64,000 bases of DNA from IMG/VR virus record IMGVR_UViG_3300049728_000159, positions 62,001-126,000 of that record; one strand, given 5' to 3'. The notes below the pieces were generated by a model, which had not been told where the DNA came from, ran no database searches, and was given only the letters and a program-made list of their open reading frames with translations. The position numbers were made by a program, and so were the translations under genes. Below are positions 6,011 through 25,464 of this stretch, in pieces (position 1 is the stretch's first letter; every line of letters starts with the position of its first letter). Source of the DNA: a virus.

Positions 6011-6718
6011 TCAGACTACTGCTGGGTCATCCATCGTGAAGACCTTGCGCGTGCTCGCGTCCACAGGATCAGATACTGGTGTAACTGGCTGCAGTGAACT
6101 TTTGAAAGGATGGTCAATTCCCATTCCAAGAAGGCCGATATGGTCGATGTGGTCAGCCGGCAAATCGCATACAGCGCACTTATCGACGATCACAGGAACT
6201 GCTGGAGTGAGGATCGAAGCGAAGGCTTTCTCGAAGACGGCCAGATTGTCCTGCCAGACGTAGAAGGTGATGTCGCCCTTGTAAGGGGTGCGCATGGCCT
6301 CGTCAGCCGCGATGTTCGCAACGTCTTCAACCGGATACCCGTAGATACCAGACGAGATCGCCACGACGCCGACATTCTTGACTCCCAGCGAGTAGCAGAG
6401 TTCAAAGATCGAGTGATAGGCTTTGCGGAGGAGGCGAGCCGCCTCTAGGGGAGTGTATTCGGAGTAGATCGGACCAACAGCGTGGAGGACATACTTGGAT
6501 CCGCTGATGCCAAACGCTGGAGTCACCACGGCTCTGCCGGTGCGGCAGCCTTCAAAGTGATCTGCTACATAGGTTTCAAGCTCTGTCACGCCAGCGGCGG
6601 CATAGATCGCACCGCATACACCGCGACCAGTCTTGAGATGCCTGTTCGCTGCGTTGACAATAGCTTCCGCGCCAGAGGTTTCGACATTGCCCACGGTGAG
6701 ACGGATTGTCTTTTTCAT
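6011..6718 (-). CDS. Macrodomain (Appr-1''-p / O-acetyl-ADP-ribose deacetylase-like) protein
   Basis: 235 residues; residues 1-170 form a macrodomain. Visible signatures are AIVNAANRHLKTGRGVCGAIYAAAG (about 19-43, the ADP-ribose loop with catalytic-type Asn and Gly residues), KYVLHAVGPIY (75-85) and ISSGIYGYP (121-129, the diphosphate loop). YmdB-type macrodomains remove ADP-ribose from proteins or nucleic acids, or deacetylate O-acetyl-ADP-ribose. A 65-residue C-terminal extension carries CAVCDLPADHIDH, a possible single-site metal motif. It is the first gene of the leftward operon, divergent from the ArgRS-like gene. Likely role: reversing host ADP-ribosylation or processing ADP-ribose (inference). 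Confidence 0.9.
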   Translation of the reverse strand: MKKTIRLTVGNVETSGAEAIVNAANRHLKTGRGVCGAIYAAAGVTELETYVADHFEGCRTGRAVVTPAFGISGSKYVLHAVGPIYSEYTPLEAARLLRKAYHSIFELCYSLGVKNVGVVAISSGIYGYPVEDVANIAADEAMRTPYKGDITFYVWQDNLAVFEKAFASILTPAVPVIVDKCAVCDLPADHIDHIGLLGMGIDHPFKSSLQPVTPVSDPVDASTRKVFTMDDPAVV

Positions 6719-6807
6719 ACTTCACTCTACGTTGCGGTACCAGAGATCGGGTAAACTAGCCTTATTCCGGCATCTTCTGGTAGAATGTGGTTGGAGAGGA
6801 AGATCTC

Positions 6808-7881
6808 ATGCATCCTATACCTGAACAAGTGGGAGTTGGTGTCACTTCACTCACTCCACTCGATCTCAAGGGATTTCGTTATGAATCTGTGGGTATTTAC
6901 CACAACTACCATGTAACGCCAACCGTCTGGGAATGGCCTGAGAAAGCCAAACCATCCGAGATAACTCTGGATGGATTCTCACCTAACCTCAACAAAGACC
7001 TTCATGTCGGGCACATCAAGAACCTGGCAATCGCCGCCGCGCTGGCAAATATCACCAAAGCCAAGCCAGTCGCAATGCTGGGAGTCACCATTGGCGAGAA
7101 AGAGGGAGCGTACACGGCATTCAACAACTGGTGTCACATCTCCGGATATCAGCCATTCATCTTATTTGATAGGGACATGAAGCCGCCCACAGGATACACA
7201 CTGACTCCCGGCACCGGAGAGTACGAAGGCTGTAAGATGTTCAACGGTGTCGTGATATACCGCTCTGACGGTCGTCCAACCTATGCAGCACACGATCTGA
7301 GCTTCGTAGAATTCTGTGCTCCGGACTTATATCTGACAGGGTATGAGCAACACGAACATTTCAAGAGCCTGGGATTGGGAGATCAGCACAAGCCGATGGG
7401 TCTGGTTCTGGGCAAGGACTACAAGAAGATGCGCTCCCGGGAGAAGGAGGGAGCAGAAGCGAACCTTGTGGCGGCTGAGGAACTGTTCGAAGAAGTTAGC
7501 AAGGTGATCAAGCCCAGCGAGAACGCTGTAGTCTCTCCTCAGTTGGCATGGAACGTCCTGGCCTGGCAGTTCAACTCAGCTGCAGTCGGGAAGAACACCA
7601 TCCTCGACATTGAGAACTGGTGCAACGTCACCAGTCCTGGCATCTACATCAGCTACACCTATGCCAGAATCAGGAAGGCTCTTGGTCCCCGTTTGTTCGG
7701 CATCGAGGGAGGCAAAAATCTCATCCCCTTTGTGAAGTTCACACTGGAGGATGCCCAGCTGGCAGGTTACGCCAGTCAGTATCAGTTCTACTGGCAGAAG
7801 GCCATCAAAGAGAATGAGCCAGTTCATATCGCTCAGTTCACTCTTCGTCTGAACGATGGCCGATGCCCAACTGACCGATGA
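6808..7881 (+). CDS. Arginyl-tRNA synthetase-like protein (class I catalytic core, short C-terminus)
   Basis: 357 residues from the ATG at 6808, chosen because GGAGAGGA lies about 6 nt upstream. The longer GTG frame at 6787 lacks a site. Class I synthetase signatures: SPNLNKDLHVGH (HIGH box, 66-69), EGCKMFNGVVIYRSDGRPTY.AHDL (ArgRS-type R.DG..tY..rDl), LTGYEQHEHF, and KKMRSR (207-211, KMSKS-like, as in the KMSTR variant). YISYTYARIRKAL matches the entry into the anticodon-binding helices. Cellular ArgRS is about 550-580 aa; the N-terminal Add1 domain and most of the DALR domain are missing here. Three tRNA-Arg genes lie downstream. It may be a minimal ArgRS or a derived tRNA-binding protein. 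Confidence 0.82.
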   Translation: MHPIPEQVGVGVTSLTPLDLKGFRYESVGIYHNYHVTPTVWEWPEKAKPSEITLDGFSPNLNKDLHVGHIKNLAIAAALANITKAKPVAMLGVTIGEKEGAYTAFNNWCHISGYQPFILFDRDMKPPTGYTLTPGTGEYEGCKMFNGVVIYRSDGRPTYAAHDLSFVEFCAPDLYLTGYEQHEHFKSLGLGDQHKPMGLVLGKDYKKMRSREKEGAEANLVAAEELFEEVSKVIKPSENAVVSPQLAWNVLAWQFNSAAVGKNTILDIENWCNVTSPGIYISYTYARIRKALGPRLFGIEGGKNLIPFVKFTLEDAQLAGYASQYQFYWQKAIKENEPVHIAQFTLRLNDGRCPTDR

Positions 7882-8173
7882 GCCAGTGACCGCCTAACCG
7901 TTCCTCCACAGACCACCGTAGAGGAATCCATTGAGTTGACAAGTGAGTGAGGGGCAGGTCTTCATCACCCATTGCGCGGTGGAGCCAACAGAGCCTTGCT
8001 TCCTAAAGTACACAGGATAGACTCGAGCAGTGACAGGGAGCGAAAGCGTCAGGCCAATCTTCTAATTGTCTGGTGGCCACCGGGCTGGGAGATAAAAGAC
8101 GCGAGTACCTCCCTGAATCTGTCTAAAGGCATCATTAACCGTTTTGAGAAGTTGTTCGGTAGAGTGTAATGTA
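7882..8173. other. Gap between ArgRS-like gene and tRNA region
   Basis: No convincing gene. A 65-codon plus frame (7972-8169, TTG start) lacks a ribosome-binding site and has odd composition. I see no continuation of the ArgRS anticodon-binding domain in any plus frame here, so the short C-terminus does not look like a simple frameshift. Confidence 0.5.
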
Positions 8174-8297
8174 CAGTGATTACGGAATCCTTTGTAGACC
8201 CCTGGTGCTGAACAGTGTCATGATTGGGTGCATTCATAGCGAAGGTTCGAATCCTTCATGGTTGAGTGTTTTGTTACAAAGGATTCCGTAATCACTG
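8174..8297. repeat. Perfect 23-bp inverted repeat enclosing a tRNA-sized segment
   Basis: 8174-8196 and 8275-8297 are exact reverse complements (23 of 23), separated by 78 nt. The loop carries GAAGG-TTCGAAT-CCTTC (8241-8257), a textbook T-stem/T-loop, but no pairing acceptor or anticodon arm could be fitted around it. The transcript would form a long RNase III-type hairpin with a T-arm-bearing loop. It may be a decayed tRNA captured between repeats. Confidence 0.7.
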
Positions 8298-8482
8298 GCA
8301 AAAATAGTTTCCCCGATCAGAGGAAACCGTAGTATTATGAAATTTGTCAAGGGAGTACTGTGAAACAGATACAGACCAATTCGATGAGACAGCATAAGCA
8401 GTGGCAGCGAAATCAGCATGCCATCGGCGGTCTGGATTCTGGAGGTAGTGCGTAATCCTACCTGGTATTTTCAGAGTTTCCA

Positions 8483-8518
8483 CCCGCCAAGCCCACAAGC
8501 TGGCGGGATTTGGTTTTT
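8483..8518 (+). terminator. Hairpin followed by T-rich run
   Basis: CCCGCCA at 8483-8489 pairs with TGGCGGG at 8501-8507 and is followed by ATTTGGTTTTT. The form fits an intrinsic terminator located just before the first clear tRNA gene. Confidence 0.5.
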
Positions 8519-8537
8519 AGGGATGGATTTTGAGAGT

Positions 8538-8614
8538 GGTCCCGTGGCGCAACTGGATAGCGCGTATGGCTACGAACCATAAGGTTGGGGGTTCAACTCC
8601 CTCCGGGATCACCA
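8538..8614 (+). tRNA. tRNA-Arg(ACG)
   Basis: Complete cloverleaf: acceptor GGTCCCG/CGGGATC, D-arm GCGC/GCGC, anticodon loop CTACGAA (anticodon ACG), T-arm with loop TTCAACT, and encoded CCA. The A34 anticodon needs deamination to inosine by host TadA to read CGU/CGC/CGA. Confidence 0.95.
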
Positions 8615-8642
8615 AAGTTTTTGCACGAGCCGAGTTCGAGTT

Positions 8643-8719
8643 CGGGCCATAGCTCAGTTGGTTAGAGCAAGGGACTCATAATCCCAAGGTCCTAGGTTCG
8701 AACCCTAGTGGCCCGACCA
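8643..8719 (+). tRNA. tRNA-Met or tRNA-Ile2 (CAT)
   Basis: Acceptor CGGGCCA/TGGCCCG (7 bp), D-arm GCTC/GAGC, anticodon loop CTCATAA, T-loop TTCGAAC, encoded CCA. C1-G72 pairs, so it is not an initiator. CAT could be elongator Met, or Ile2 if modified by TilS. A second CAT tRNA occurs at 12188. Confidence 0.92.
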
Positions 8720-8736
8720 AGTTTGAATTGATTCGC

Positions 8737-9267
8737 TCAGGCGAACAACGGCGTGATCTTTGACAATTTGTTGTAGTAGTTCAAAGCCATGAAATTGAGA
8801 GTGAGTGAATGACAGCTTGGACACAACAGTTTCACATTATCTGGTGAATTGTTATCTCCATCACCGTCAATATGATGAAGTTGCACTGGGATAAGTCCAG
8901 TTTTCGGATGAACCTCTTTCCAACCGCATTGTTCACACTTATCTCCTCTTAAAATGGCTAATGCTTTGTGCACTACTCTATAGTTGGCTCTTGTGGGATG
9001 TATCTTTCCGGAAAGCCAGTCATCTATCCACTTTTGGAATTTGATTTGAAATCCTTGATTGATGCTTCTGCGTATCTTTTCCTTCACTTCTTTACTATGA
9101 GGACTACGATTACGAACAGGTTTACCCTTCAGTTTAGCACTCACTTCTTGGTTGATTTTTAACCTAGATGCTTTGGTGGCAAAGCCTCTAGCACAGCCAA
9201 TTGAACAGAAACGACCAGAACCATAAGTACCATCGTGAAGAGTAGTGCAATTTTCGCAAGATTTCAA
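8737..9267 (-). CDS. HNH homing endonuclease
   Basis: 176 residues from a TTG at 9267, chosen because GGAGG lies 6 nt upstream and because the start then aligns with the sister gene at 12307 (MxCxxCxxxHDGxYGxGxFCS). It has an N-terminal zinc-ribbon-like pair of Cys-x2-Cys motifs, a basic middle (DNA binding), then CEQCGW...VQLHHIDGDGDNNSPDNVKLLCPSCHS, the HNH/beta-beta-alpha metal site. Such enzymes nick DNA and spread their own gene. It sits antisense between tRNA-Met and tRNA-Trp, consistent with mobility into the tRNA cluster. Confidence 0.9.
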   Translation of the reverse strand: MKSCENCTTLHDGTYGSGRFCSIGCARGFATKASRLKINQEVSAKLKGKPVRNRSPHSKEVKEKIRRSINQGFQIKFQKWIDDWLSGKIHPTRANYRVVHKALAILRGDKCEQCGWKEVHPKTGLIPVQLHHIDGDGDNNSPDNVKLLCPSCHSLTLNFMALNYYNKLSKITPLFA

Positions 9268-9307
9268 TTGGAACCTCCAGTAATGGTTCCGAAAGTCTGG
9301 ATTCAAC

Positions 9308-9382
9308 GGGAAATTAAGCTAGTTGGTAAACTGTCTGCCTCCAAATCAGAACTCAGGGGTTCGATTCCTCTATTTCCCGCCA
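9308..9382 (+). tRNA. tRNA-Trp(CCA)
   Basis: Acceptor GGGAAAT/ATTTCCC, anticodon loop CTCCAAA (CCA), T-arm AGGGG-TTCGATT-CCTCT, discriminator G and encoded CCA. The D-stem has one mismatch and the last anticodon-stem pair is C-T, so folding is slightly weak. Confidence 0.85.
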
Positions 9383-9396
9383 AAAGATTAACCGAT

Positions 9397-9570
9397 ATGC
9401 TGGGTTTTCCAGTAGAGATTCGTATGGAAGACACAATATATCGCGGGTATACGATTCATCCTTTACGAGATGGCGGCTTTCGCATCATAGCCGAGACCTA
9501 CGTGGTCCGGAACTATGTCAGAACGGAAGACAAAGCCAAGAGCGTGATTGACGGATTGTTCATCAAGTAG
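9397..9570 (+). CDS. Hypothetical protein (57 aa) within tRNA cluster
   Basis: Short protein with YRGYTIHPLRDGGFRII and EDKAKSVIDGLF. The ATG at 9424, with GAGA upstream, is an alternative start (48 aa). Its pattern of alternating strands plus a C-terminal helix is protein-like. No function recognised. Confidence 0.55.
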   Translation: MLGFPVEIRMEDTIYRGYTIHPLRDGGFRIIAETYVVRNYVRTEDKAKSVIDGLFIK

Positions 9571-9885
9571 TTTGCACCGCCTCTTAGTCTACTTTTCGTT
9601 CGTGCAATAAAGTTTCCGGGCAATGGACCTTCCAGGGGCCAGTGCGACTAGACCAGGACAGACCCATGAGGCTGGAACCTCCGTGGCGAGTCCGAACAAA
9701 GCACCGCCTTCAACGGCGGGGATCTGGTGAGAAGGTTGACCAGCATTCGCTTCGGCGAATGTAGCTTAGAAGTCATTGCCCGGTCGGGCAGTTCAGCGGA
9801 AGAATGGGTTTCCACGCCTTCTGGCTCCAACCAGGAGGTCAATGGATTCCCACCGTTCCTGCCCAACAAGTTCGGTTTCACATGT
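9571..9885 (+). other. Gap with a decayed tRNA-like segment (9786-9864)
   Basis: No ORF is supported. At 9786-9864, GGGCAG and CTGCCC could pair 79 nt apart. The stretch AGTTCAGCGGAAGAA resembles the D-arm of the tRNA-His at 9971 (AGTTCAGCGGTAGAA), but no T-loop is present. It is most simply a tRNA remnant. Confidence 0.35.
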
Positions 9886-9959
9886 TGCCTTTTCGTTCAA
9901 TGGCAGGACACTTGGCTCTGGACCAGGATATGTAGGTTCGAATCCTACAGAGGCAGCCA
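9886..9959 (+). tRNA. tRNA-Gln(CTG)
   Basis: Acceptor TGCCTTT/AGAGGCA (one G-U), D-arm GTTC/GGAC, anticodon arm CTTGG-CTCTGGA-CCAGG (CTG), T-arm GTAGG-TTCGAAT-CCTAC, discriminator G, encoded CCA. Confidence 0.93.
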
Positions 9960-9970
9960 AACAATTTCAT

Positions 9971-10046
9971 GGAGTCTGTAGTTCAGCGGTAGAACGCTGG
10001 TCTGTGGCACCAGTAGTCGAGGGTTCGAATCCCTCTAGACTCCCCA
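9971..10046 (+). tRNA. tRNA-His(GTG)
   Basis: Encoded G(-1) opposite C73, acceptor GAGTCTG/TAGACTC, D-arm GTTC/GAAC, anticodon arm CTGGT-CTGTGGC-ACCAG (GTG), T-arm GAGGG-TTCGAAT-CCCTC, encoded CCA. The extra 5' G is the identity element for HisRS. Confidence 0.95.
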
Positions 10047-10092
10047 AATTCAGCAGTACCCGATCTCATAAATCGGAGTAGAGGGTAAGGTC

Positions 10093-10287
10093 ATGCAGCA
10101 CATCTTGAGAGTACCGAATACATCGAACTATGTCATCTCAGACGATGCTGCGATCACCCGCACTTTGAGGTTTGGATATCGCTACGAGGCAACCAGATTT
10201 GAGGATTATGAGGTTGCCTTCGGTGTTGCTGACGAAGTGATGAGCAGCAAGAAGGTTCAGATCGAGATTGAGGAAGTTGCAGTATAA
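10093..10287 (+). CDS. Hypothetical protein (64 aa) within tRNA cluster
   Basis: 64 residues (MQHILRVPNTSNYVISDD...), soluble, with an acidic beta-rich C-terminus (VQIEIEEVAV). GGTAAGG lies upstream of the ATG. It lies between tRNA-His and tRNA-Asn. No recognised family. Confidence 0.6.
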   Translation: MQHILRVPNTSNYVISDDAAITRTLRFGYRYEATRFEDYEVAFGVADEVMSSKKVQIEIEEVAV

Positions 10288-10294
10288 CAAGTGT

Positions 10295-10369
10295 TCCTGG
10301 GTAGCTCAACGGCAGAGCGTTCGGCTGTTAACCGAATGGTTGTGGGTTCGAATCCCTCCTCAGGAGCCA
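10295..10369 (+). tRNA. tRNA-Asn(GTT)
   Basis: Acceptor TCCTGGG/CTCAGGA, D-arm GCTC/GAGC, anticodon arm TTCGG-CTGTTAA-CCGAA (GTT), T-loop TTCGAAT with one T-T mismatch in the stem, discriminator G, encoded CCA. Confidence 0.92.
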
Positions 10370-10375
10370 AAGATT

Positions 10376-10437
10376 CGGGTGTGATCATTCCGCCCAACAA
10401 GCAGCCGGTGGTCGTTGGTCCGAATCCAACCCACCCG
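10376..10437 (+). pseudogene. Degenerate tRNA-like sequence, D-arm region shortened
   Basis: CGGGTG and CACCCG pair at the ends and GTTGG-TCCGAAT-CCAAC forms a T-arm at the correct distance from the 3' strand. Only 31 nt separate acceptor and T-stem (about 41 expected), the T-loop has TCC for TTC, and no CCA is encoded. A decayed or D-arm-lacking tRNA. Confidence 0.4.
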
Positions 10438-10522
10438 TTTAGACAGAGCAAGTGACCATGCCCTAAGAGTCCCAGGATTCCTTTTCTAGAGGGGAATCAA
10501 GGTCGGCGGAACGGTCCATTCG

Positions 10523-10580
10523 CTTGGTGGTAGCTCAGCCTGGATAGAGCACCGGCGTTGAATTTGTAAGTTTCCGGTCG
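10523..10580 (+). pseudogene. 5' half of a tRNA, interrupted in the anticodon arm
   Basis: GGTGGTAGCTCAGCCTGGAT followed by AGAGCACCGG is a typical tRNA 5' half with D-arm. The anticodon stem ACCGG closes with CCGGT only after an 18-nt loop, and no T-arm follows. It lies about 180 nt before a tRNA-targeting-type homing nuclease gene. Confidence 0.45.
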
Positions 10581-10664
10581 TTTCATAGTGGCAAGACACA
10601 CTCTCTTTCGCGAGGAGTGTATGGAGGGATGGCCCACCTCCCCGGAGAGCCTTTTTGTAGATGT

Positions 10665-10740
10665 GCGAGCGTAACTCAGTTGGTAGAGTAACCGGCTCTT
10701 AACCGGGACGTCGGGGGTTCGATCCCCTCCGCTCGCACCA
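10665..10740 (+). tRNA. tRNA-Lys(CTT)
   Basis: Acceptor GCGAGCG/CGCTCGC, D-arm ACTC/GAGT, anticodon loop CTCTTAA (CTT), T-arm GGGGG-TTCGATC-CCCTC, encoded CCA. Confidence 0.93.
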
Positions 10741-10762
10741 AAGTTTTGAGTATTGATGAGAT

Positions 10763-11170
10763 ATGCTAGCAAGCACTCATCAAAAGGGTGAGATCGGAAA
10801 GCTGAAAGTCATGCTCCGAGCCACCGAGTTGGGATGGATTGTGAGCGTTCCTTCTGTAGACGCCAGGTACGACTTGGTGGTCGACAACGGAAAGGAACTT
10901 CTCAGGGTTCAAGTGAAGTATTGCAGCTGTAGCTTGACGAAGGATTCTGTTGAAGTGGGTCTATCGGCTGAATGCCGAAATAGCGGATACAAGAAGAAGT
11001 ACACGTCTGAAGAGATTGATGTGGTAGTTGCTTACTTGCCCGCTACAGAAAAGTGCTACTGGTTACCGATCCAACAATTTCAAGGAGGCGGAACTGTGAC
11101 ACTTAGATTTACTCCGACGAAGAATATGCAGGTGAAGAATGTTCATCTTGCAAAGGACTTCGAGTGGTGA
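10763..11170 (+). CDS. PD-(D/E)XK homing endonuclease, I-Ssp6803I-like
   Basis: 135 residues. KGEIGKLKVMLRATELGW is followed by SVDARYDLVVDNGKELLRVQVKY, the active-site pattern D...(x)..Q-x-K of the I-Ssp6803I family (PF11645-type). The founding member lives in a group I intron of a cyanobacterial tRNA-fMet gene and cleaves tRNA genes. The C-terminal part (EEIDVVVAYLP...CYWLPI) also fits. Here it is free-standing between tRNA-Lys and small ORFs. No group I intron core was recognised around it. Its target is probably a tRNA gene of this cluster (inference). Confidence 0.82.
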   Translation: MLASTHQKGEIGKLKVMLRATELGWIVSVPSVDARYDLVVDNGKELLRVQVKYCSCSLTKDSVEVGLSAECRNSGYKKKYTSEEIDVVVAYLPATEKCYWLPIQQFQGGGTVTLRFTPTKNMQVKNVHLAKDFEW

Positions 11171-11387
11171 AAGTTTAGTCTAGGGTAGTCTCCGGTGGTC
11201 GGAACAGTCCTGATCGGAGAGGCGCGTCTATCCTGGGAAGAGGCACGTGGTGGATTGTCAACCGGCACCTGGCCTCGATCAAATGTCGCTCTTTTGAGCG
11301 TGGGTTGAAACGTATCGACAACCGTCCGTCTCTCTCTCGCAGCAGGTAAAAGTTCGCTGGAGAAGCGAAACGCAGTATCAGAATGGC

Positions 11388-11561
11388 ATGAACCCTGATG
11401 AGATTTCCGCTCTGGTGCATCTTGCCTTTCTGTTCGGATGTTTAGTGGGGATGTTTGTCAGTCTGGCTGTAGTTGGTGTCGTGGCGTTGATTCAACTCGA
11501 AGGGTGCTTCTCCAGGATGGAAAAGACACTGAAAGGTCCTCATGAAGTCCCGCATGCGTAG
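11388..11561 (+). CDS. Small single-span membrane protein (57 aa)
   Basis: A 57-residue ORF with one strong hydrophobic helix (LVHLAFLFGCLVGMF...VVGVVALIQL, about residues 9-36) and a basic/acidic cytoplasmic tail. Its 3' end overlaps the start of the next gene. Possibly a holin/spanin accessory or a membrane regulator; nothing decisive. The 11171-11387 stretch before it shows no gene. Confidence 0.5.
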   Translation: MNPDEISALVHLAFLFGCLVGMFVSLAVVGVVALIQLEGCFSRMEKTLKGPHEVPHA

Positions 11562-11817
11562 GATCGTAGTTCGAGGAGTGACGTTCCTCTTCAAGATTGG
11601 CAAGGCCGACTTGTTCGTGAGATTTCCGGATGGTCGGATGCATCACAAGGATTTGAGTGAGTTGATGGGTTTGTCACAAGACAACATCGACCGGGGTCGC
11701 TGGAAGAAGACGAGCGACGGAGAAGTCCATCCGGAAGATGTTGCAAGGTTCATCTGTCAAGAACTGCAGGTAAGTCTCCCAGGTGGGGAGGTCCCTCGTT
11801 CGTGGTATGACGGATAG
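11542..11817 (+). CDS. Hypothetical basic protein (91 aa)
   Basis: 91 residues (87 if started at the ATG at 11554), with VRFPDGRMHHKDLSELMGLSQDNIDRGRW and a C-terminal SLPGGEVPRSWYDG. It may contain a small helix-turn-helix-like segment (DLSELMGLSQDNIDRGRW), which would suggest DNA binding, but this is weak. Confidence 0.6.
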   Translation: MKSRMRRIVVRGVTFLFKIGKADLFVRFPDGRMHHKDLSELMGLSQDNIDRGRWKKTSDGEVHPEDVARFICQELQVSLPGGEVPRSWYDG

Positions 11818-11820
11818 TAT

Positions 11821-12033
11821 TTGAACTTCAACGGTCTTTGGTTCCGCTGCTACGAGGAGAAGTCGAGTTACTCGTCTTCTTACACTTGGACTCAGTTTGT
11901 CATCGAGCAGCGCAAGAAGGATTGGAAGGTCGGGCGGAAGCTCGAGAGTTGCAACAGCAAGGAAGTTGAGTACATCAAGGCCGAATATGCAGGACGACAG
12001 GAAGTTTCAGGAACTGCTCGCATGGCTGGATAA
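11821..12033 (+). CDS. Hypothetical protein (70 aa), TTG start
   Basis: Aromatic and charged protein (FNGLWFRCYEEKSSYSSSYTW...IEQRKKDWKVGRKLE). The TTG start at 11821 is inferred from the position just after the upstream stop. It overlaps the 5' end of the next ORF in another frame. Confidence 0.45.
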   Translation: MNFNGLWFRCYEEKSSYSSSYTWTQFVIEQRKKDWKVGRKLESCNSKEVEYIKAEYAGRQEVSGTARMAG

Positions 12034-12151
12034 GGCCTCGATTCACTGTCCTTCATGCAACTCAACAGAGGTCACGACGTGTAACAACGAGTGGCCTCTC
12101 AAGCAGAAGTGTTTGGAATGCCACCAGGAGAAACTTGATGAACGGAAATGA
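11987..12151 (+). CDS. Small zinc-ribbon protein (54 aa)
   Basis: 54 residues with HCPSC (about 19-23) and KCLEC (about 42-46), a two-knuckle Cys4 zinc ribbon, preceded by a helix (FQELLAWLDKA). Such ribbons bind nucleic acid or partner proteins. It ends just upstream of the duplicated tRNA-Met 5' end. Confidence 0.6.
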   Translation: MQDDRKFQELLAWLDKASIHCPSCNSTEVTTCNNEWPLKQKCLECHQEKLDERK

Positions 12152-12152
12152 C

Positions 12153-12200
12153 GAAGAATAAATCGCAGTGTAGTTCGAAGAATAAATCGCAGTGTAGTTC
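12153..12200. repeat. Tandem 24-bp duplication of a tRNA 5' end
   Basis: Two perfect 24-nt copies (12153-12176 and 12177-12200). The unit includes the first 13 nt of the following tRNA (CGCAGTGTAGTTC) plus 11 nt of upstream sequence. The first copy is an abortive tRNA start. Likely slippage or repair of a cut at this tRNA. Confidence 0.9.
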
Positions 12201-12265
12201 AGCCTGGTGAGAACGCTTTCCTCATAAGAAAGATGTCGGGGGTTCAAATCCCTTCACTGCGACCA
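12188..12265 (+). tRNA. tRNA-Met or tRNA-Ile2 (CAT), second copy
   Basis: Acceptor CGCAGTG/CACTGCG, D-arm GTTC/GAAC, anticodon arm CTTTC-CTCATAA-GAAAG (CAT), T-arm GGGGG-TTCAAAT-CCCTT, encoded CCA. Its body differs from the CAT tRNA at 8643, so one may be Met and the other Ile2. Confidence 0.93.
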
Positions 12266-12306
12266 ATTTGAACTAGGGGATTCTTTAGTATAAGGAGTCC
12301 CTTAGA

Positions 12307-12933
12307 ATGATCTGCAAGAAGTGTGGTAAGGAACATGATGGCTCATACGGAGAAGGAAATTTCTGCTCTTCCAAATGTAGTCATTCAAGGACCTGGACTC
12401 CGGAGGTAAATCGGAGCAGGAGTGAGAAGAGCAGGAAGGCGTACTCCGAACATCATGAAAAGTACGTCACCTTTCGAGAAAATTCTCAGTCAGCAGAGGC
12501 GATAAAGAAACGGGCTGCCAAGATACTCGCCAGATCAGCTGCTACTCCCTTTGAAGATCTAGGGTATGGCAGTAAGAAGGAAAGGGTTGTAAGGGAACAA
12601 GGAGGAAAGTGCTTAATCTGTGGGATTGACGAGTGGAATGGAAAACCCATATCTCTTCGGCTAGATCACATAGATGGTGTGCGATCCAACAATTCTCGCA
12701 GTAACTTCAGAGGTATTTGTCCCAATTGTGACAGTCAGTTGCCCACCTATTGCGGAAACAAAGTGGGTAGAAGTAGCGAAGGAAGAATTTCAGATGAACA
12801 GTTGCTTGAAGCTCTAAGAACGTCTGAAACTGTTTCTCAAGCATTAAGAAAAGTCGGATTGAGTGATTCTTCAGGAAGCAGGTACTTGACCAGATGTGTG
12901 AGAATTTTAGACTCTATCAAGTCGGCAGCCTGA
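12307..12933 (+). CDS. HNH homing endonuclease
   Basis: 208 residues. The N-terminal CKKCGKEHDGSYGEGNFCSSKC zinc module matches the HNH gene at 8737. A basic helical linker is followed by GGKCLICGIDEW...LRLDHIDGVRSNNSRSNFRGICPNCDSQ, the HNH metal site with a treble-clef Cys pair. The C-terminal helices (SDEQLLEALRTSETVSQALRKVGLS) look like a helix-turn-helix that sets DNA specificity. RBS AAGGAG. It follows tRNA-Met(CAT). Confidence 0.9.
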   Translation: MICKKCGKEHDGSYGEGNFCSSKCSHSRTWTPEVNRSRSEKSRKAYSEHHEKYVTFRENSQSAEAIKKRAAKILARSAATPFEDLGYGSKKERVVREQGGKCLICGIDEWNGKPISLRLDHIDGVRSNNSRSNFRGICPNCDSQLPTYCGNKVGRSSEGRISDEQLLEALRTSETVSQALRKVGLSDSSGSRYLTRCVRILDSIKSAA

Positions 12934-12993
12934 ACTTGGGGGTGAAGTCATTCCGGACCGATCCTCCACCATTTTTCAAGAAAGGAAACCACC

Positions 12994-13524
12994 ATGTTGT
13001 CCGCAACCAACACTCTCATCAAGTCGACTCCGGTTCTCGTACTGAATGCCAGTTACGAGCCGCTGCGCTATGCGAGTGCTCAGCGGGCACTGTGCATGGT
13101 AATCAAGGGAGTTGCCAAGTCTGAGGAAGAGTATGACCTCTTGGTTCGTCCAGGATTCTTTCTTCCTTGCGTAGTCAGGCTGGTGAAGTACCGGAAGGTG
13201 CCACACCGTCAGCAGGAGTTGAGCAGACGGAACATCTACCTTCGCGACGGTTACACCTGCCAGTACTGCGGTGTTCAGTTCTCAGCAAAGAATCTCACCT
13301 GGGACCACGTTGTACCGAAGTCCAAGGGTGGAAGGAACTGCTGGGAGAACCTGGTCACGGCTTGTCAGGCTTGCAACCAGAAGAAGGGCGACAGGGATCT
13401 GAGCGATATCAAGGACATGAAACTGATTCGCTACCCTCGTCCATTGACCATTCACACCAACCGGAACCTGATTCGTTCTATGGGTGCCGGCATGGAAAAG
13501 TGGAAGAAGTACCTGTTCTATTGA
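12994..13524 (+). CDS. HNH endonuclease family protein
   Basis: 176 residues. The opening VLVLNASYEPLRYASAQRALCMVI, then RRNIYLRDGYTCQYCG, LTWDHVVPKSKGGRNCWENLVTACQACNQKKGDR. This is the widespread HNH_5-type family of phages and bacteria, different from the NUMOD/HNH mobile genes nearby. The metal site (DH...N...H/CxxC) is intact. Role unknown; such proteins may nick host DNA or be mobile. RBS AAAGGAAACCACC before the ATG. Confidence 0.88.
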   Translation: MLSATNTLIKSTPVLVLNASYEPLRYASAQRALCMVIKGVAKSEEEYDLLVRPGFFLPCVVRLVKYRKVPHRQQELSRRNIYLRDGYTCQYCGVQFSAKNLTWDHVVPKSKGGRNCWENLVTACQACNQKKGDRDLSDIKDMKLIRYPRPLTIHTNRNLIRSMGAGMEKWKKYLFY

Positions 13525-13836
13525 GATGACCGATGTTGGCCGAGTCGGAGGTAGATATCGTCTGTGCACGAGGCGATTCGGCCCCAAGTTTAGAGGTTCA
13601 GGAGAGTTGTTCAGGTAGAGGTTCAGACAGAGGATGAGGCTATTCGCGCATCGAGCACTCCGTGCTCATGTAATCCGGATCGTCTAGTTCGGTAAACCTA
13701 GTTCAACGCTCCTGATCAATCGAGGAACCGGATCAGCTAACAACCTGCCGGAATCCCTGATCCGGTTCTAAGATCAGTTTTGAGAGAGGAGTGTCACAAT
13801 GCGAAAACCTTCAGACGAGCCTGGCAAACGCACTGT
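13525..13836 (+). other. Gap before tRNA-Lys with hairpin (13727-13766)
   Basis: No ORF longer than about 20 codons is supported here except the tiny frame at 13799. ACCGGATCAG (13727-13736) and CTGATCCGGT (13757-13766) form a perfect 10-bp stem with a 20-nt loop. It is without a clear U-run, so a processing or stability element is as likely as a terminator. Confidence 0.5.
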
Positions 13837-13846
13837 GCGCTCGTAG
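13799..13846 (+). CDS. Possible 15-aa leader peptide ending inside tRNA-Lys
   Basis: The ATG at 13799 has GAGAGGAG about 8 nt upstream. The 15-codon frame ends at TAG formed by nucleotides 8-10 of the tRNA-Lys(TTT) gene. Two longer ORFs end in the same way at the next two tRNA genes. Supported only by the ribosome-binding site and that pattern. Confidence 0.35.
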   Translation: MRKPSDEPGKRTVRS

Positions 13847-13912
13847 CTCAATGGTCAGAGCATCTGGCTTTTAACCAGTTGGTTGGGGGTTCGAGTCCCT
13901 TCGGGCGCACCA
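13837..13912 (+). tRNA. tRNA-Lys(TTT)
   Basis: Acceptor GCGCTCG/CGGGCGC, D-arm GCTC/GAGC, anticodon arm TCTGG-CTTTTAA-CCAGT (TTT), T-loop TTCGAGT, encoded CCA. Together with the CTT tRNA at 10665 both Lys codons are covered. Confidence 0.94.
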
Positions 13913-13920
13913 TAACATCC

Positions 13921-14091
13921 ATGGAACTGAAACAATCCAATGCGGGAGATATCACGTTGGAGATGCTCCAAAGAGCATTTGCTGAGAGCCTTATACCCGC
14001 ACCAACGGGTCCGGTGTACATCTGGTGCAAGCCGAACGAAGTGTATCAGATGAGAGAGTACCTGAAAGAGAAGTTAGGCATGACCGTGTAG
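13921..14091 (+). CDS. Hypothetical protein (56 aa) whose stop codon lies in tRNA-Arg
   Basis: 56 residues (MELKQSNAGDITLEMLQRAF...IPAPTGPVYIWCKPNEVYQMREYLKEKLG), helical, soluble. The frame looks genuine by composition. It starts 9 nt after tRNA-Lys and its TAG stop is nucleotides 8-10 of tRNA-Arg(CCT), so 10 nt are shared. Confidence 0.6.
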   Translation: MELKQSNAGDITLEMLQRAFAESLIPAPTGPVYIWCKPNEVYQMREYLKEKLGMTV

Positions 14092-14158
14092 CTCAGTTGG
14101 ATAGAGCGGTGGTTTCCTAAACCGCAGGTCGGGGGTTCAATCCCCTCCACGGTCACCA
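14082..14158 (+). tRNA. tRNA-Arg(CCT)
   Basis: Acceptor GACCGTG/CACGGTC, D-arm GCTC/GAGC, anticodon arm GTGGT-TTCCTAA-ACCGC (CCT), T-arm GGGGG-TTCAATC-CCCTC, encoded CCA. Reads the rare AGG codon. Its first 10 nt overlap the upstream ORF. Confidence 0.94.
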
Positions 14159-14171
14159 AGTTTGGTGAGAC

Positions 14172-14411
14172 ATGCTATTTCCTTGTCCTTGTTGCGGTAA
14201 TCACACTCTCGAAGACGTGCGTCATGTGTATGAAATCTGTCCAGTGTGCTACTGGGAAGATGAATGTCTCGAGAATGAGGACACTCCCAGTGATTGCAAT
14301 CACATGACACTGCGAGAGGGTAGGATAAATTACAAGAGCATCGGGTCTTGTGATCGGAATCTAAGGCAGTATTGCCGCGATCCATTACCTGAAGAAGTCG
14401 TGGCCTCGTAG
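14172..14411 (+). CDS. CPCC cysteine-rich zinc protein
   Basis: 79 residues with FPCPCCGNHTLED, YEICPVCYWEDE and NHMTLREGRINYK, the Cys_rich_CPCC pattern (PF14206-type): two Cys pairs and an acidic WED box, expected to bind one zinc. The function of the family is unknown. RBS GGTGAGAC. The stop TAG is nucleotides 8-10 of tRNA-Arg(TCT), so the last codons are shared with the tRNA. Confidence 0.85.
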   Translation: MLFPCPCCGNHTLEDVRHVYEICPVCYWEDECLENEDTPSDCNHMTLREGRINYKSIGSCDRNLRQYCRDPLPEEVVAS

Positions 14412-14477
14412 CTCAGTGGATAGAGCATCTGCCTTCTAAGCAGAGGGTCGCAGGTTCGAAACCTGCCGGGGTCACCA
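14402..14477 (+). tRNA. tRNA-Arg(TCT)
   Basis: Acceptor GGCCTCG/CGGGGTC (with G-T pairs), D-arm GCTC/GAGC, anticodon arm TCTGC-CTTCTAA-GCAGA (TCT), T-arm GCAGG-TTCGAAA-CCTGC, encoded CCA. Reads AGA/AGG. It is overlapped by the CPCC gene on the same strand and by the C-terminus of the GH28-like gene on the other. Confidence 0.94.
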
Positions 14478-16464: not shown

Positions 16465-16477
16465 TTCAGCAATCTCC

Positions 16478-19646: not shown

Positions 19647-19658
19647 AGGTGGCTTCCC

Positions 19659-20419: not shown

Positions 20420-20493
20420 AGGCAATCTCCTTTTGGAAAGCGGATTTTGCGAGTATCATGAAATAGAACCGAAGGCAGGTTCTGCCTAGGATC

Positions 20494-21963: not shown

Positions 21964-22221
21964 TTACTCTAAGGATCTTCCTTCACAGTTGTCGCCCATG
22001 GCGCCAATCGTATGGAGTCTACGACGTTCATTTATGGAAAAGGCGAGTTCTGTCTTCTTCATGCATGCCCAGTGACCATTGTTGCCAAGAAAACTGCAAC
22101 AGCTGGATCCTCGACCCATAAGACAGACTTCCTGAGCCCATTGTTCATCGGGTGGAGTTGAACTTTGACTTGGAGTTACTGTAATCACAGGATCCTTTCT
22201 GGTGTCGACGGCTGAGCACAC
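21964..22221 (-). CDS. Hypothetical Cys-containing protein (85 aa), GTG start
   Basis: 85 residues with five Cys, including CSFLGNNGHWACMKKT, which may form a disulphide or metal site. It abuts the stop of the convergent gene at 21963. No ribosome-binding site is obvious at the GTG. Confidence 0.45.
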   Translation of the reverse strand: MCSAVDTRKDPVITVTPSQSSTPPDEQWAQEVCLMGRGSSCCSFLGNNGHWACMKKTELAFSINERRRLHTIGAMGDNCEGRSLE

Positions 22222-22251
22222 TTCGCACTCAGCCTATCGAACGAACAGGAA

Positions 22252-22737
22252 CTAGGCTGCTGCCTTGACCGCCGCTGCCTTCTTGGCCACCGAGACCTTC
22301 TTGCGGCGAGCCACTTCGCGCTTGCGCTGCAAGGGAGACAACTTGGCCCAGTAGTCCTTGTTGCCAGCGCTGGAGCTTGCCTTGGTCTTGGCGACGAGAT
22401 GAGGCTTCTTGGCTGCCTTCTCTTCCTTCTTGGCCGCCTTCTTGGCTACCTTCTTCGCAGCATGCTGCGACTGGAAGAATTCCTGGAAAGCCTCTGCCGC
22501 CTTCTGTTGAAGTTCCTCTTCCAGATCCACCCGATGGAGGGCAACCGTGTGCTCTGCCAAGAAATCACCGGCCAGCAACAGTCCCACTCTGGAAACGAGT
22601 TCATCAGAGGGAAGATCGTACTGTGAAGCAAAGCTCTCGATCTGCTGTTCCAACCGACCGTGCAGATAGTGAGCCGCAGCGACAGTTGCACAACACCGCC
22701 GAGTATTTGAATCCTTGTTTTCCTTGTCTTTTGCCAT
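22252..22737 (-). CDS. Protein with Lys/Ala-rich, histone-H1-like C-terminal tail
   Basis: 161 residues: a helical N-terminal domain (about 1-90) with AAHYLHGRLEQQIESFA, then a strongly basic tail (AAKKVAKKAAKKEEKAAKK and ARRKKVSVAKKAAAVKAA). Such tails resemble H1-like bacterial proteins and suggest non-specific DNA or RNA binding. It could compact DNA or accompany DNA into the capsid (inference). RBS AAGGAG precedes the ATG. Confidence 0.7.
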   Translation of the reverse strand: MAKDKENKDSNTRRCCATVAAAHYLHGRLEQQIESFASQYDLPSDELVSRVGLLLAGDFLAEHTVALHRVDLEEELQQKAAEAFQEFFQSQHAAKKVAKKAAKKEEKAAKKPHLVAKTKASSSAGNKDYWAKLSPLQRKREVARRKKVSVAKKAAAVKAAA

Positions 22738-22749
22738 TTGGTTCTCCTT

Positions 22750-22980
22750 CTACCTAACTTCGATTTCTCCGTTTTTCAACCGGAGGAAACTCCCGGTCTG
22801 CATGGGCGGAGGACCCCAGTCCAACATGTCATCGATCTCAGCACCAGTGGCGAGATCAAATTCCCAGGAACCGCAGATCACTTTGCCATCACGAACAACG
22901 TGGACAACCAGGGGCAGTTCAATCTCCCCGGCGAGCATGCGGAACACAACGTCTCCCGTTCTCGGGATCTTGAGAGTCAT
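22750..22980 (-). CDS. Hypothetical protein (76 aa)
   Basis: Small beta-rich protein (GDVVFRMLAGEIELPLVVHVV...GSWEFDLATGAEIDDMLDWG). The ATG overlaps the stop of the upstream gene (ATGA), so translation is coupled. No family recognised. Confidence 0.65.
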   Translation of the reverse strand: MTLKIPRTGDVVFRMLAGEIELPLVVHVVRDGKVICGSWEFDLATGAEIDDMLDWGPPPMQTGSFLRLKNGEIEVR

Positions 22981-23534
22981 TTCTTCCTCGTTCTCCTGAT
23001 CTTACTGGGTGTGACTAGCTTTGTTACAGTTGCCGCATAAGGGTCAATTCTTGGAAGGCTGTGCATGTCACGGAACCACTGTGGGATGCAATCCCAGTCA
23101 TCTGGTTCCTTTTCGCCACCAAAGACATCTCCATAGCGACGTTTGGGCTCCCAGTAACGTGGCACGATGTTGTGCACCTCGAGCATTTTCCGCGCTTCCA
23201 GTTCGGAGGCCATCACGTTGGTCCATGTGAACGAACTGACAACGACTACGAGAGCACTGGGATTATCTGCAGCATAGGTGACCAGATGCCACGAGTTCTT
23301 TTCTGCCATTGAGTTCCCGAGCATCATCCCGCCGTAGTCGAAAAGCACCAGGTCCGTTCCCGGCTGCAGATCCTCTGGATAACACGACCAAGGAGAATAG
23401 ACCTTCAACTTGGCTGGAGAAAGCAGTTCGGAGAAATCCTTGATGTGTTGCTTGATCTCATCCTCTGGAGTTCTATCTCCAAGTGAACTGCCAATCGGGT
23501 CAACAATGATTGCTGTCTTAAGTTCAATCGGCAT
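22977..23534 (-). CDS. Hypothetical alpha/beta protein (185 aa)
   Basis: Start at ATG 23534 (GGAG six nt upstream). The pattern TAIIVDPIGSS..., TDLVLFDYGGMMLGNS, ALVVVVSSFTWTNVM of alternating strands and helices suggests a Rossmann-like or glutamine-amidotransferase-like fold, with no clear catalytic set. It overlaps the hydrolase-like gene upstream by 11 nt and ends in a basic tail (KIRRTRKK). Probably functions with its operon partner. Confidence 0.65.
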   Translation of the reverse strand: MPIELKTAIIVDPIGSSLGDRTPEDEIKQHIKDFSELLSPAKLKVYSPWSCYPEDLQPGTDLVLFDYGGMMLGNSMAEKNSWHLVTYAADNPSALVVVVSSFTWTNVMASELEARKMLEVHNIVPRYWEPKRRYGDVFGGEKEPDDWDCIPQWFRDMHSLPRIDPYAATVTKLVTPSKIRRTRKK

Positions 23535-24084
23535 CGTCATCTCCAAACACGTTCTTCACTGCTATGGCGATGTACTCATCGATCATGAAAGCTGAGACGA
23601 CAGTGGCAACGCTGTACTTCTGATGTGTTGCTGACATCATCCAAGACACGTCGTAGGCTTGGTTTGTGAGATCAGGCCAGCCGGCAGTCGCACTCTCTGT
23701 TGCTTTGTCCAAGTGAGAGTATAATGCGACACGGCAATCCTCGATCCTCTTGTTGAGGGTCAGAGTTGGCATGTTGGTGGGAGATGAAATTGCGAAGACG
23801 GATAGTTCGTGAAGAGGAAATCTTTCCTGGAGCGCGGCGGCGATCAAGCCACCCATACCAAATCCGATGATCAAAGATTTGGGCTCAATCATGAAAGTCT
23901 TGCGGGATGCTGCCCTAAATGAATCCTTGGCGGTGACCGATGGATTTCGATGACGCAACAGTGGTCGAATGTAGTTCACACCTGGGAATCTCGCCCGGAG
24001 CATTTCTTCCAATGTCAGGGGATTTCCCTCAGGAGTCTCTCCCTGACCATGGAATATGTACACGTTTTGAAATCTAGAACTCAT
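23524..24084 (-). CDS. Alpha/beta-hydrolase-like protein lacking the usual Ser nucleophile
   Basis: 186 residues. VYIFHGQGETPEGNP resembles the oxyanion-hole HG segment, and KSLIIGFGMGGLIAAALQE occupies the nucleophile-elbow position, but the canonical GxSxG reads G-F-G-M-G. HELSVFAISSP and a C-terminal strand follow as in small esterases. The protein is short (typically 200+). It may be a catalytically dead binding protein or a different alpha/beta fold. Confidence 0.6.
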   Translation of the reverse strand: MSSRFQNVYIFHGQGETPEGNPLTLEEMLRARFPGVNYIRPLLRHRNPSVTAKDSFRAASRKTFMIEPKSLIIGFGMGGLIAAALQERFPLHELSVFAISSPTNMPTLTLNKRIEDCRVALYSHLDKATESATAGWPDLTNQAYDVSWMMSATHQKYSVATVVSAFMIDEYIAIAVKNVFGDDDAD

Positions 24085-24097
24085 ATCTAAGATCCCT

Positions 24098-24643
24098 CTA
24101 CGTCGAACTAGAGGGGATCGGGTATTTTGTGTTCAATAATCCAGATAGATAGCGATCACGAAGAGCCGTAAGGACCTCTCCCAACCAGTTCTTGCCGCGC
24201 CAATTCGCCGGGTCAAGGATCCGATCATCGTAGTAATTCATGCCCACTCCCCAAAGAGTGTCCGTGGGTGAGGCTTCTACCAAGATGGTCCCTTTGGTGG
24301 ACAGTAGCTGCTTGAGGAGTTCCGGATTCTGACTGAACTTGAAATAGCAAGCCAGGTCCATCCACTCCCGGGAAGCAGCATCCCAAACTTCTTTGTTGAA
24401 GTTGGTCACCACACGACCCAGGGCCTTGGCGATGGCTGGAGTCTCAGCAGTGATGATTCGCTTGGCAGTCCGAAGATCATGAAAGTAGAGAGCCTTGCAG
24501 AGCATGAAGTAATGCTCGGAATCGGGGAATGACTGCTTGATCAGACCAAGCTCGATCACATCGGTAACAAAGGGAGCCGGGTGGAAGTTGGAGTAGATGT
24601 CGTTGGTGCCATAGAAGAAAGTGTACTTCTCAGTGATTCTCAT
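24098..24643 (-). CDS. NADAR (YbiA/RibX-like) domain protein
   Basis: 181 residues covering a full NADAR domain: FFYGTNDIYSNFHPAPF, DSEHYFMLCKALYF, IITAETPAIAKALGRVV, W..A.REWMDLACYFKFSQNPELLKQLLST and ILVEASPTDTLWGVGM...WRGKNWLGEVLTALR. The acidic residues of EASPTD and the WG(V/I)G box form the active site. Family members cleave N-glycosidic bonds of ribosylated metabolites; some remove ADP-ribose from nucleic acids. It is the last gene of a coupled four-gene operon with a SLOG protein. Consistent with ADP-ribose/NAD metabolism. Confidence 0.92.
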   Translation of the reverse strand: MRITEKYTFFYGTNDIYSNFHPAPFVTDVIELGLIKQSFPDSEHYFMLCKALYFHDLRTAKRIITAETPAIAKALGRVVTNFNKEVWDAASREWMDLACYFKFSQNPELLKQLLSTKGTILVEASPTDTLWGVGMNYYDDRILDPANWRGKNWLGEVLTALRDRYLSGLLNTKYPIPSSST

Positions 24644-24806
24644 TCAGTTTCCCATTTCCTGTTCCATGGCACACTTTACACACAGAGGTCTTCTCTTCTC
24701 TGATCTCGCCAGACATGGAGAATTCCCCGTTGGCGTCAGCGGCATATCGACTGCTCCAAGGAACTTCTCCCTTTCCCTTGCAGGCCGCGCAGACTGGGTA
24801 CTTCAT
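24630..24806 (-). CDS. Small DnaJ-type zinc-finger protein (58 aa)
   Basis: 58 residues with VCAACKGKGE at the N-terminus and VCKVCHGTGN near the C-terminus: two CxxCxGxG motifs as in the DnaJ cysteine-rich domain, enough for one zinc site. The ATG overlaps the upstream stop as ATGA, and the end overlaps the NADAR start by 14 nt. Such modules bind unfolded protein or act as adaptors. A role in the NADAR/SLOG operon is suggested by the tight coupling. Confidence 0.75.
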   Translation of the reverse strand: MKYPVCAACKGKGEVPWSSRYAADANGEFSMSGEIREEKTSVCKVCHGTGNGKLNENH

Positions 24807-24988
24807 ACGTCAACATGACCTCGTTCTCTCATCAACTGTTCCAGGTTCTTACGACGCCAGTACTCCTTCACCAGATGGAGAGCCCAGTCAAATCTCCACG
24901 CTGTCCAGTTTCTCTTTCCGATCTGAACATACCAGTATCCACTGCGAAAGTAGAGAAAGGGTTTGTTGTGCACTGCACGACGCCTCAT
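24803..24988 (-). CDS. Small basic Trp/Arg-rich protein (61 aa)
   Basis: 61 residues with YFRSGYWYVQIGKRNWTAWRFDWALHLVKEYWRR, rich in aromatic and Arg residues. Its ATG overlaps the SLOG stop (ATGA) and its stop overlaps the next ATG the same way. Nucleic-acid binding is possible from composition only. Confidence 0.65.
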   Translation of the reverse strand: MRRRAVHNKPFLYFRSGYWYVQIGKRNWTAWRFDWALHLVKEYWRRKNLEQLMRERGHVDV

Positions 24989-25434
24989 ACAGACATCTCT
25001 CCATCCGGAGCAACGATGATCACAATTTTGCCCTTCTTACGAGCATAGCGAACAGTGGCCCAAGTTCCAGATCTCAGGACTTCATGCTGTTGAGCCGGGG
25101 TGGCAATCATGGTGGTGGAAGCGTCTACGATGAGATGATCGCGTTCTAGGAAAGCACCTTCTGGCATGACCTCATCGTTGCCATCGAACCCTCCCCGATT
25201 GGACATGTTGGTCGGGTTATCGGGAGGATATCCGGGAAATGCAATTACACGGAATCCGATTTCCTTCGCCATAGCGGCTGACTGAACATCGGCACCAACG
25301 CATTGACCGTGGCGGAAATTGTGCTCGCGATCAATGACGTAGCTCGCCGCATACAGCTTCGTGAGAAGACTTTTTATTGCTGTCTTCTGTGAATCTGTCA
25401 TTCCGCGATGCGTGCCGGTGAACCCAATTTGCAA
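24985..25434 (-). CDS. SLOG-superfamily nucleotide-binding protein, TTG start
   Basis: 149 residues. It opens with IGFTGTHRGMTDSQ, then HGQCVGADVQSAAMAKEIGFRVIAFPGYPP, FLERDHLIVDASTTMIATP and SGTWATVRYARKKGKIVIIVAPDG, matching the SLOG fold (phosphate-binding GxxG at the N-terminus, GAD, RN..IVD, GTW..vR.A). SLOG proteins bind nucleotides or NAD/ADP-ribose derivatives, and some serve as sensors or hydrolases in immune systems. TTG start with GAGGAG upstream. First gene of the coupled operon leading to NADAR. Confidence 0.85.
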   Translation of the reverse strand: MQIGFTGTHRGMTDSQKTAIKSLLTKLYAASYVIDREHNFRHGQCVGADVQSAAMAKEIGFRVIAFPGYPPDNPTNMSNRGGFDGNDEVMPEGAFLERDHLIVDASTTMIATPAQQHEVLRSGTWATVRYARKKGKIVIIVAPDGEMSV

Positions 25435-25464
25435 GATATTCTCCTCACAACAGTATTACCTATT

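Follow-up and report, generated by a model that had tools for sequence, protein, structure and literature searches.

Macrodomain, NADAR and SLOG proteins co-occur and are enriched in large phages, where a role in countering host immunity has been proposed for them (PMC9503650, PMC7824862). We analysed a 64,000-nucleotide stretch of DNA (the window; bases 62001-126000 of the 187,058-base virus record IMGVR_UViG_3300049728_000159) that encodes all three domains: a macrodomain protein at one site and, at another, a run of genes that opens with a SLOG protein and contains a NADAR protein. The grouping of such ADP-ribose (ADPr) genes is an already described theme of giant phages, of which this is another instance. 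On balance, and with only modest confidence, we favour the view that they are locally assembled, separately acquired genes that blunt host defences based on ADP-ribosylation or nicotinamide adenine dinucleotide (NAD) signals as independent proteins, and not as a conserved complex. To judge from their sequences, counter-defence is the most likely role of these genes, and this theme of the sequence-only reading that preceded our analysis finds support here and has been published before (PMC9503650, PMC7824862).

The Macro/NADAR/SLOG/Nudix sets of large phages share with the window the presence of the three domains in one genome and the same counter-immunity proposal (PMC9503650, PMC7824862). They also include neighbourhoods and fusions in which SLOG is combined with Macro and NADAR. 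The window differs from them in that a stand-alone, sub-threshold DprA/YAcAr-like SLOG opens a run that includes two small orphan proteins, in that its macrodomain lies at a separate site, and in that no Nudix gene was found in the record. Two unrelated phages of ~240 kb (L003 and L006) encode a YpsA-type SLOG fused to a macrodomain near a NADAR gene. The L006 fusion is significant by Pfam, while the L003 protein is, by eye, its full-length homologue; NADAR lies downstream of the fusion by 15 nt in L006 and by ~1.7 kb in L003. The gene order in L006 (3716-6492; IMG/VR 2936514734_000001) is an RtcB-like gene, identified by reading the sequence, the YpsA-SLOG/DarG-like macrodomain fusion and then NADAR. 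The macrodomain of the fusion matches DarG in PADLOC (E = 4.9e-13), and DarG-type and NADAR-type de-ADP-ribosylases are adjacent in this one phage. The neighbourhoods in L003 and L006, in Synechococcus phage B23 and in G028, a record of the window phage's own family, match those described in PMC9503650.

Likeness to the Thoeris defence system and to the phage sponges Tad1 and Tad2 is limited to the SLOG superfamily, which includes ThsA, and to a possible capture of ADPr-type ligands, the sponge role being an analogy only. However, no ThsA chain is found among the listed PDB matches of the window SLOG (the best 50 Foldseek rows), and no SIR2 partner was seen. With DarG antitoxins the phage shares the presence of a macrodomain, but that of the window is closest to MacroD/YmdB-type models and has no DarG match in PADLOC.

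The macrodomain and NADAR assignments of the sequence-only reading were borne out by profile searches that pass curated cut-offs. The NADAR protein matches PF08719 over profile positions 1-161 of 163 (E = 3.5e-44; 151 bits vs. a cut-off of 35.1) and the NCBIfam equivalog-domain model TIGR02464 (145.8 vs. 73.7 bits); in PADLOC it reaches a candidate class only. By alignment, its residues E43, K50, E123, D128 and W131 correspond to E43, K50, E125, D130 and W133 of the ADPr-bound NADAR of the oomycete P. nicotianae, which bind or hydrolyse guanine-ADPr (PMC11543638). At the E125 position, Glu marks the YbiA subfamily, Asp the DarT1 antitoxins (BC4488 type) and His the gp30.3 proteins; judged by this residue, the window NADAR is of the YbiA type and not of the DarT1-antitoxin or gp30.3 type. 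NADARs of the YbiA and T4 types are active in vitro on DNA and RNA carrying ADPr on guanine (PMC11125620, PMC11833690). The window protein resembles E. coli YbiA (COG3236/TIGR02464) in the catalytic Glu of the last strand and in the ligand-binding residues that were checked, although the two are only distantly similar overall. It shares the NADAR fold and de-ADP-ribosylase chemistry with DarT1-associated NADARs, but differs from them in having Glu instead of Asp at the subfamily-defining site.

The window comes from a phage of a large family of contractile-tailed giant phages that has been little described; the records of this family reach ~460 kb and seem to derive from soil and peat. A scan for the major capsid protein gave 143 contigs, the same virus included, and conservation was assessed in the phage's own record and 27 others, nearly all of the same family; these records are partial, and absences from them are not proven. 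The capsid scan led to 25 of the 27 and a SLOG scan to the other two (G016 and G014). G016 has a 7-kb stretch in common, at 100% identity, with the capsid-scan record G015; G014 has no capsid match, and its membership of the family is thus not established. G013 (455,708 bases) is a true relative, in which 80 proteins match and long collinear stretches flank the studied loci on both sides. Because the closest contig in IMG/VR is 100% identical and represents the same virus, it adds no independent evidence.

NADAR is found in 10 of the 27 other records. The window NADAR clusters with phage NADARs at ~37-45% identity, for example that of phage B23, whose gene sits between genes for nicotinamide mononucleotide adenylyltransferase and nicotinamide phosphoribosyltransferase (NAD salvage). 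In a tree of 22 NADARs, in which some branches are long, it again sits with those of unrelated phages, and all seven sampled NADARs of its own family lie opposite it across a branch with a Shimodaira-Hasegawa-like approximate likelihood ratio (SH-aLRT) value of 99. This separation suggests that the window NADAR was probably acquired separately and that the trait has been gained repeatedly. In G028 (L264:3689-4753), a DUF4326 gene (PF14216, E = 1.8e-21) lies directly upstream of NADAR.

SLOG occurs in six of the 27 records (G013-G016, G027 and G029) and, where NADAR is also present, the two are ~38-107 kb apart. The 186-aa hydrolase-like protein encoded after NADAR in the window has four strong and two weak matches among the 27; its gene is ~8-11 kb from SLOG in four records, and that of the following 189-aa protein is ~5 kb from SLOG in G013 and G027. 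These distances suggest that the SLOG, hydrolase-like and Rossmann-like genes occupy a common region in the family, and that NADAR and the two small open reading frames (ORFs) lie between them only here. Among records of at least 90 kb besides the window's, all five that are SLOG-positive also have NADAR, four have NADAR only and seven have neither (one-sided Fisher p = 0.03, or 0.05 without the duplicate virus, not corrected for phylogeny), which is suggestive only of a tendency for SLOG to occur in genomes that also carry NADAR.

The SLOG call of the sequence-only reading held at the level of the fold, while falling below every curated profile cut-off (Pfam, PHROG and NCBIfam). The best Pfam match is PF02481 (E = 0.005; 16.4 bits vs. 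a cut-off of 29.6), and PHROG 289 is matched at E = 1e-7. The protein has 471 viral relatives, and an AlphaFold model built from an alignment of 67 viral sequences (66 relatives plus the window SLOG) reached a predicted local distance difference test (pLDDT) score of 96.4 and a predicted template modelling (TM) score, pTM, of 0.90. Foldseek gave 17 PDB matches at E<0.001, every one of them from the SLOG superfamily, with TM scores of 0.57-0.67 on the query. They comprise LOGs of types I and II, YpsA, the molybdenum cofactor (MoCo) carrier and similar proteins, with DprA just behind; PpnN is also among the Foldseek hits. We assign the protein to the SLOG superfamily because a high-confidence model matches only structures of this superfamily at that threshold; its predicted fold is the Rossmannoid SLOG fold. 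LOG phosphoribohydrolases have the motif PGGxGTxxE, with a catalytic Glu. In the alignment of viral relatives, made without superposition of structures, the family motif is SGTWxTxR and an invariant Thr127 takes the place of this Glu, which would argue for binding over LOG-type hydrolysis.

The window SLOG groups with L046 (from G014) and L047 (SH-aLRT 94). In G014 (L259:128-1113), the sister SLOG gene shares an ATGA with the next gene, whose 186-aa product combines a J domain (E = 1.8e-12) with four CxxC DnaJ-type zinc motifs; the L047 SLOG has no DnaJ-type zinc neighbour. Two further SLOG relatives (L050:4023-5390 and L052:2440-4030) are preceded by a ~256-aa nucleotidyltransferase-like ORF, which from its sequence looks like the RNA-repair type, and by an ORF of 63-66 aa.

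The macrodomain matches PF01661 over its full length (positions 1-118 of 118; E = 7.1e-29; 100.6 bits vs. a cut-off of 22). It lies 17 kb from the gene run, beside an argS-like gene and a tRNA cluster, and is thus outside the operon; collinearity with G013 on both sides indicates that it lies in the phage backbone. It was found in none of the 27 other records, and a scan of viral contigs with strict peptide patterns, by which only close relatives are detectable, also gave none. The catalytic Asn and Asp of MacroD are N25 and D35 in YmdB numbering. The window protein keeps N25 and the SSGIYGYP loop, while D35 is replaced by Cys35 and the Asp of the GD(I/V) motif, which contacts adenine, by Asn11. 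Both Asp residues are retained in the macrodomain of Pseudomonas phage Y1. Since some viral macrodomains function without the catalytic Asp, the sequence leaves activity uncertain and not excluded. The proposal that both proteins reverse ADP-ribosylation would therefore seem plausible for NADAR, where the catalytic residues are kept, and weaker for the macrodomain, with its Asp to Cys change. Divergent from the macrodomain gene, positions 6787-7881 encode a 364-aa protein with a partial match to the arginyl-tRNA synthetase catalytic domain (PF00750, E = 4e-6), and 11 tRNA genes (8538-14477) lie nearby.

The positions given beforehand for the macrodomain, NADAR, SLOG and small-ORF genes proved exact, as did the gene overlaps. 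The SLOG stop and the 61-aa start share an ATGA at 24985-24988, the 61-aa stop and the 58-aa start share another at 24803-24806, and the 58-aa gene runs 14 nt into the NADAR gene (24630-24643). The first four genes are thus coupled as described, but what was described as a four-gene operon forms only the front half of a run of eight same-strand genes, which continues past NADAR with genes for proteins of 186 aa (after 13 nt), 189 aa (overlapping), 76 aa (ATGA overlap) and 161 aa (after 12 nt) (Table 1). A promoter and terminator scan around the operon gave nothing above chance, and at the DNA level the operon had no match in 50,697 public phage records. A homing-endonuclease (HNH) like gene (25408-26160; PHROG 655, E = 1e-9) adjoins the start of the SLOG gene and may have offered a way for genes to enter at this point.

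Table 1. Macrodomain gene and eight-gene run in the window (window coordinates)
Feature	Position	Strand	Basis
Macrodomain (residues 5-168) with C-terminal extension bearing a CxxC...H motif	6011..6718	-	PF01661, PDB alignments; active-site changes N11, C35
SLOG-superfamily protein, 149 aa, first gene of run	24985..25434	-	TTG start behind strong GAGGAG ribosome site; AlphaFold, Foldseek
61-aa Trp/Arg-rich probable orphan, ATGA overlap at both ends	24803..24988	-	No profile match; synonymous codon use normal
58-aa DnaJ-type zinc protein	24630..24806	-	Two CxxCxGxG motifs; PF00684 E = 0.0028, below cut-off
NADAR protein, 181 aa, YbiA-type active site	24098..24643	-	PF08719, TIGR02464, alignments
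Alpha/beta-hydrolase-like protein, 186 aa	23524..24084	-	Weak Pfam; phage-family relatives
189-aa alpha/beta (Rossmann-like) protein	22977..23546	-	Relatives in phage family only
76-aa protein, ATGA overlap with preceding gene	22750..22980	-	Reading frame and gene overlap
161-aa Lys/Ala-rich protein, last in run	22252..22737	-	Reading frame

The 61-aa protein has no match in Pfam, PHROG, NCBIfam or PADLOC and no relatives in the viral contigs, the phage records or the phage family; a match in L036 runs antisense to a primase-like gene and was discarded as chance. Its ORF is probably a real orphan gene, because its synonymous codon use is normal (0.106 vs. a phage mean of 0.124) and 9% of random frames of its length would stay open, even without the added demand for two ATGA junctions. 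The raw codon score, by which it could pass for non-coding, reflects its amino-acid make-up. A full DnaJ-type zinc domain carries four CxxCxGxG motifs. The 58-aa protein has two (CAACKGKG and CKVCHGTG), scores 18.3 bits against PF00684 (cut-off 32.7), and has no relatives in the phage-family records and no detectable homology to the J-domain protein of G014. ORFs with CxxCxGxG are rare in the SLOG loci (8 of 2083), making the parallel with G014 a notable one; yet it is a single case, and the two proteins are not detectably homologous. It is very doubtful that SLOG and a DnaJ-type zinc protein form a recurring, signal-gated counter-defence pair of phages, in which SLOG would bind an NAD-derived immune signal and the zinc protein would couple it to NADAR here and to the J domain in G014. 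The pairing is the one lead that merits a wider search.

The sequence-only reading had gone further and seen in the tight coupling a defined complex, while holding that an operon unique to this contig, with small ORFs that are not conserved, would speak against it. Such a complex would consist of a SLOG sensor, two small adaptors and a NADAR effector. The SLOG-61aa-58aa-NADAR order is indeed found in no examined record besides contigs of the same virus, and conservation gives the complex no support: the 61-aa protein is without relatives, the 58-aa protein cannot be linked by homology to the J-domain protein, and in the family SLOG and NADAR are far apart and the NADARs are of another group. 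The ATGA, ATGA and 14-nt overlaps are what a dedicated complex would be expected to show, and the ATGA-linked J-domain/zinc gene after the sister SLOG, together with the SLOG-macrodomain fusions near NADAR in two other large phages, point the same way; short overlaps are, however, present elsewhere in this phage, and the run goes on into unrelated genes. We consider such a complex improbable. That SLOG is instead a DprA-like DNA-handling protein (single-stranded DNA binding, recombination), placed on the NADAR mRNA by chance, is a less remote alternative, if still a rather unlikely one. Its best sequence profile matches are to DprA (PF02481 in 12 of the 67 aligned sequences; DprA chains at E = 0.05), curators label mycobacteriophage relatives DprA-like, and DprA has been proposed as a phage single-stranded DNA-binding protein (PMC7824862). 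Foldseek, however, places LOGs, some of them AMP-bound, and YpsA above DprA, the protein has 149 aa vs. 218-282 residues for the DprA chains in the Foldseek table, and some relatives match YAcAr, a SLOG class linked to NAD use.

An explanation with no link to immunity is that NADAR, and perhaps the macrodomain, remove ADP-ribosyl or ribosyl by-products of tRNA and RNA repair or of nucleotide metabolism. The NADAR protein passes the cut-off of TIGR02464, a riboflavin-intermediate N-glycosidase model, the phage has an RNA ligase and the tRNA cluster near its macrodomain, and in L006 the gene before the SLOG-macrodomain/NADAR pair reads as RtcB-like. On the other hand, neither NADAR nor SLOG in the window has a recognisable RNA ligase or repair gene as a neighbour, 2H and KptA partners not having been sought, and we regard clean-up of this sort as unlikely. 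Several observations also weigh against counter-defence by separately acquired genes: TIGR02464 would give NADAR the riboflavin label, YbiA and the T4 phage NADAR gave cells no protection from DarT1 (PMC11125620), bacterial genomes with SLOG relatives have no NADAR within 4 kb, and the virus record holds no Nudix, NAMPT or DarT (PF14487) gene. The lack of these last three makes the label of an ADPr/NAD 'toolkit', under which the genes had first been described, a generous one.

We nevertheless prefer counter-defence by independently acting proteins. The families, folds, conserved residues and gene order, together with the separate ancestry of NADAR, are the observations from which we infer substrates and a counter-defence role, and we also count in its favour the RNA ligase of the phage and its dependence on NAD+ by way of an NAD-dependent DNA ligase. 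With its catalytic residues kept, NADAR would be a working YbiA-type de-ADP-ribosylating N-glycosidase, which may act either on phage DNA or RNA, stripping ADPr from guanine, or on small ADPr or ribosyl metabolites, which it would cut. SLOG would bind nucleotides, capturing or sensing an adenine-nucleotide ligand, and would not be a LOG-type hydrolase. The macrodomain would bind ADPr and is probably weak or inactive as a MacroD-type hydrolase. SLOG and NADAR would be translated from a linked mRNA and the macrodomain from its separate site, each acting independently.

Of the genes that complete the run, that for the 186-aa protein encodes a nucleophile elbow without Ser (GFGMGG), as does its G013 relative (GFGLCG), and the protein is possibly a non-catalytic hydrolase fold. 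The 189-aa protein has relatives in G013 (E = 1e-40) and G027 (E = 5e-36), and a fold search with its model (pLDDT 70) gave no confident match. Elsewhere, PHROGs identify a tail sheath, a major head protein, a helicase, a UvsX-like recombinase and the NAD-dependent DNA ligase, and Pfam the RNA ligase, a class II ribonucleotide reductase, an intein, thymidylate synthase, an adenylosuccinate synthetase-like protein and a peptide deformylase. The adenylosuccinate synthetase-like protein (L022:4389-5519; phage bases 44389-45519) scores under the equivalog cut-off for PurA and far under that for PurZ. The major capsid protein (window 49816-50949) is 85% identical, where aligned, to the G013 copy (L148:10604-11563) and has an insert of ~65 residues.

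These data document ADPr genes in an environmental family of giant phages, and caution against taking overlaps between phage genes as a sign of a protein complex. In this single family, NADARs from distinct groups turn up repeatedly and at different sites. Such repeated, separate gain is the pattern expected of counter-defence genes, and it supplies concrete proteins for assay.

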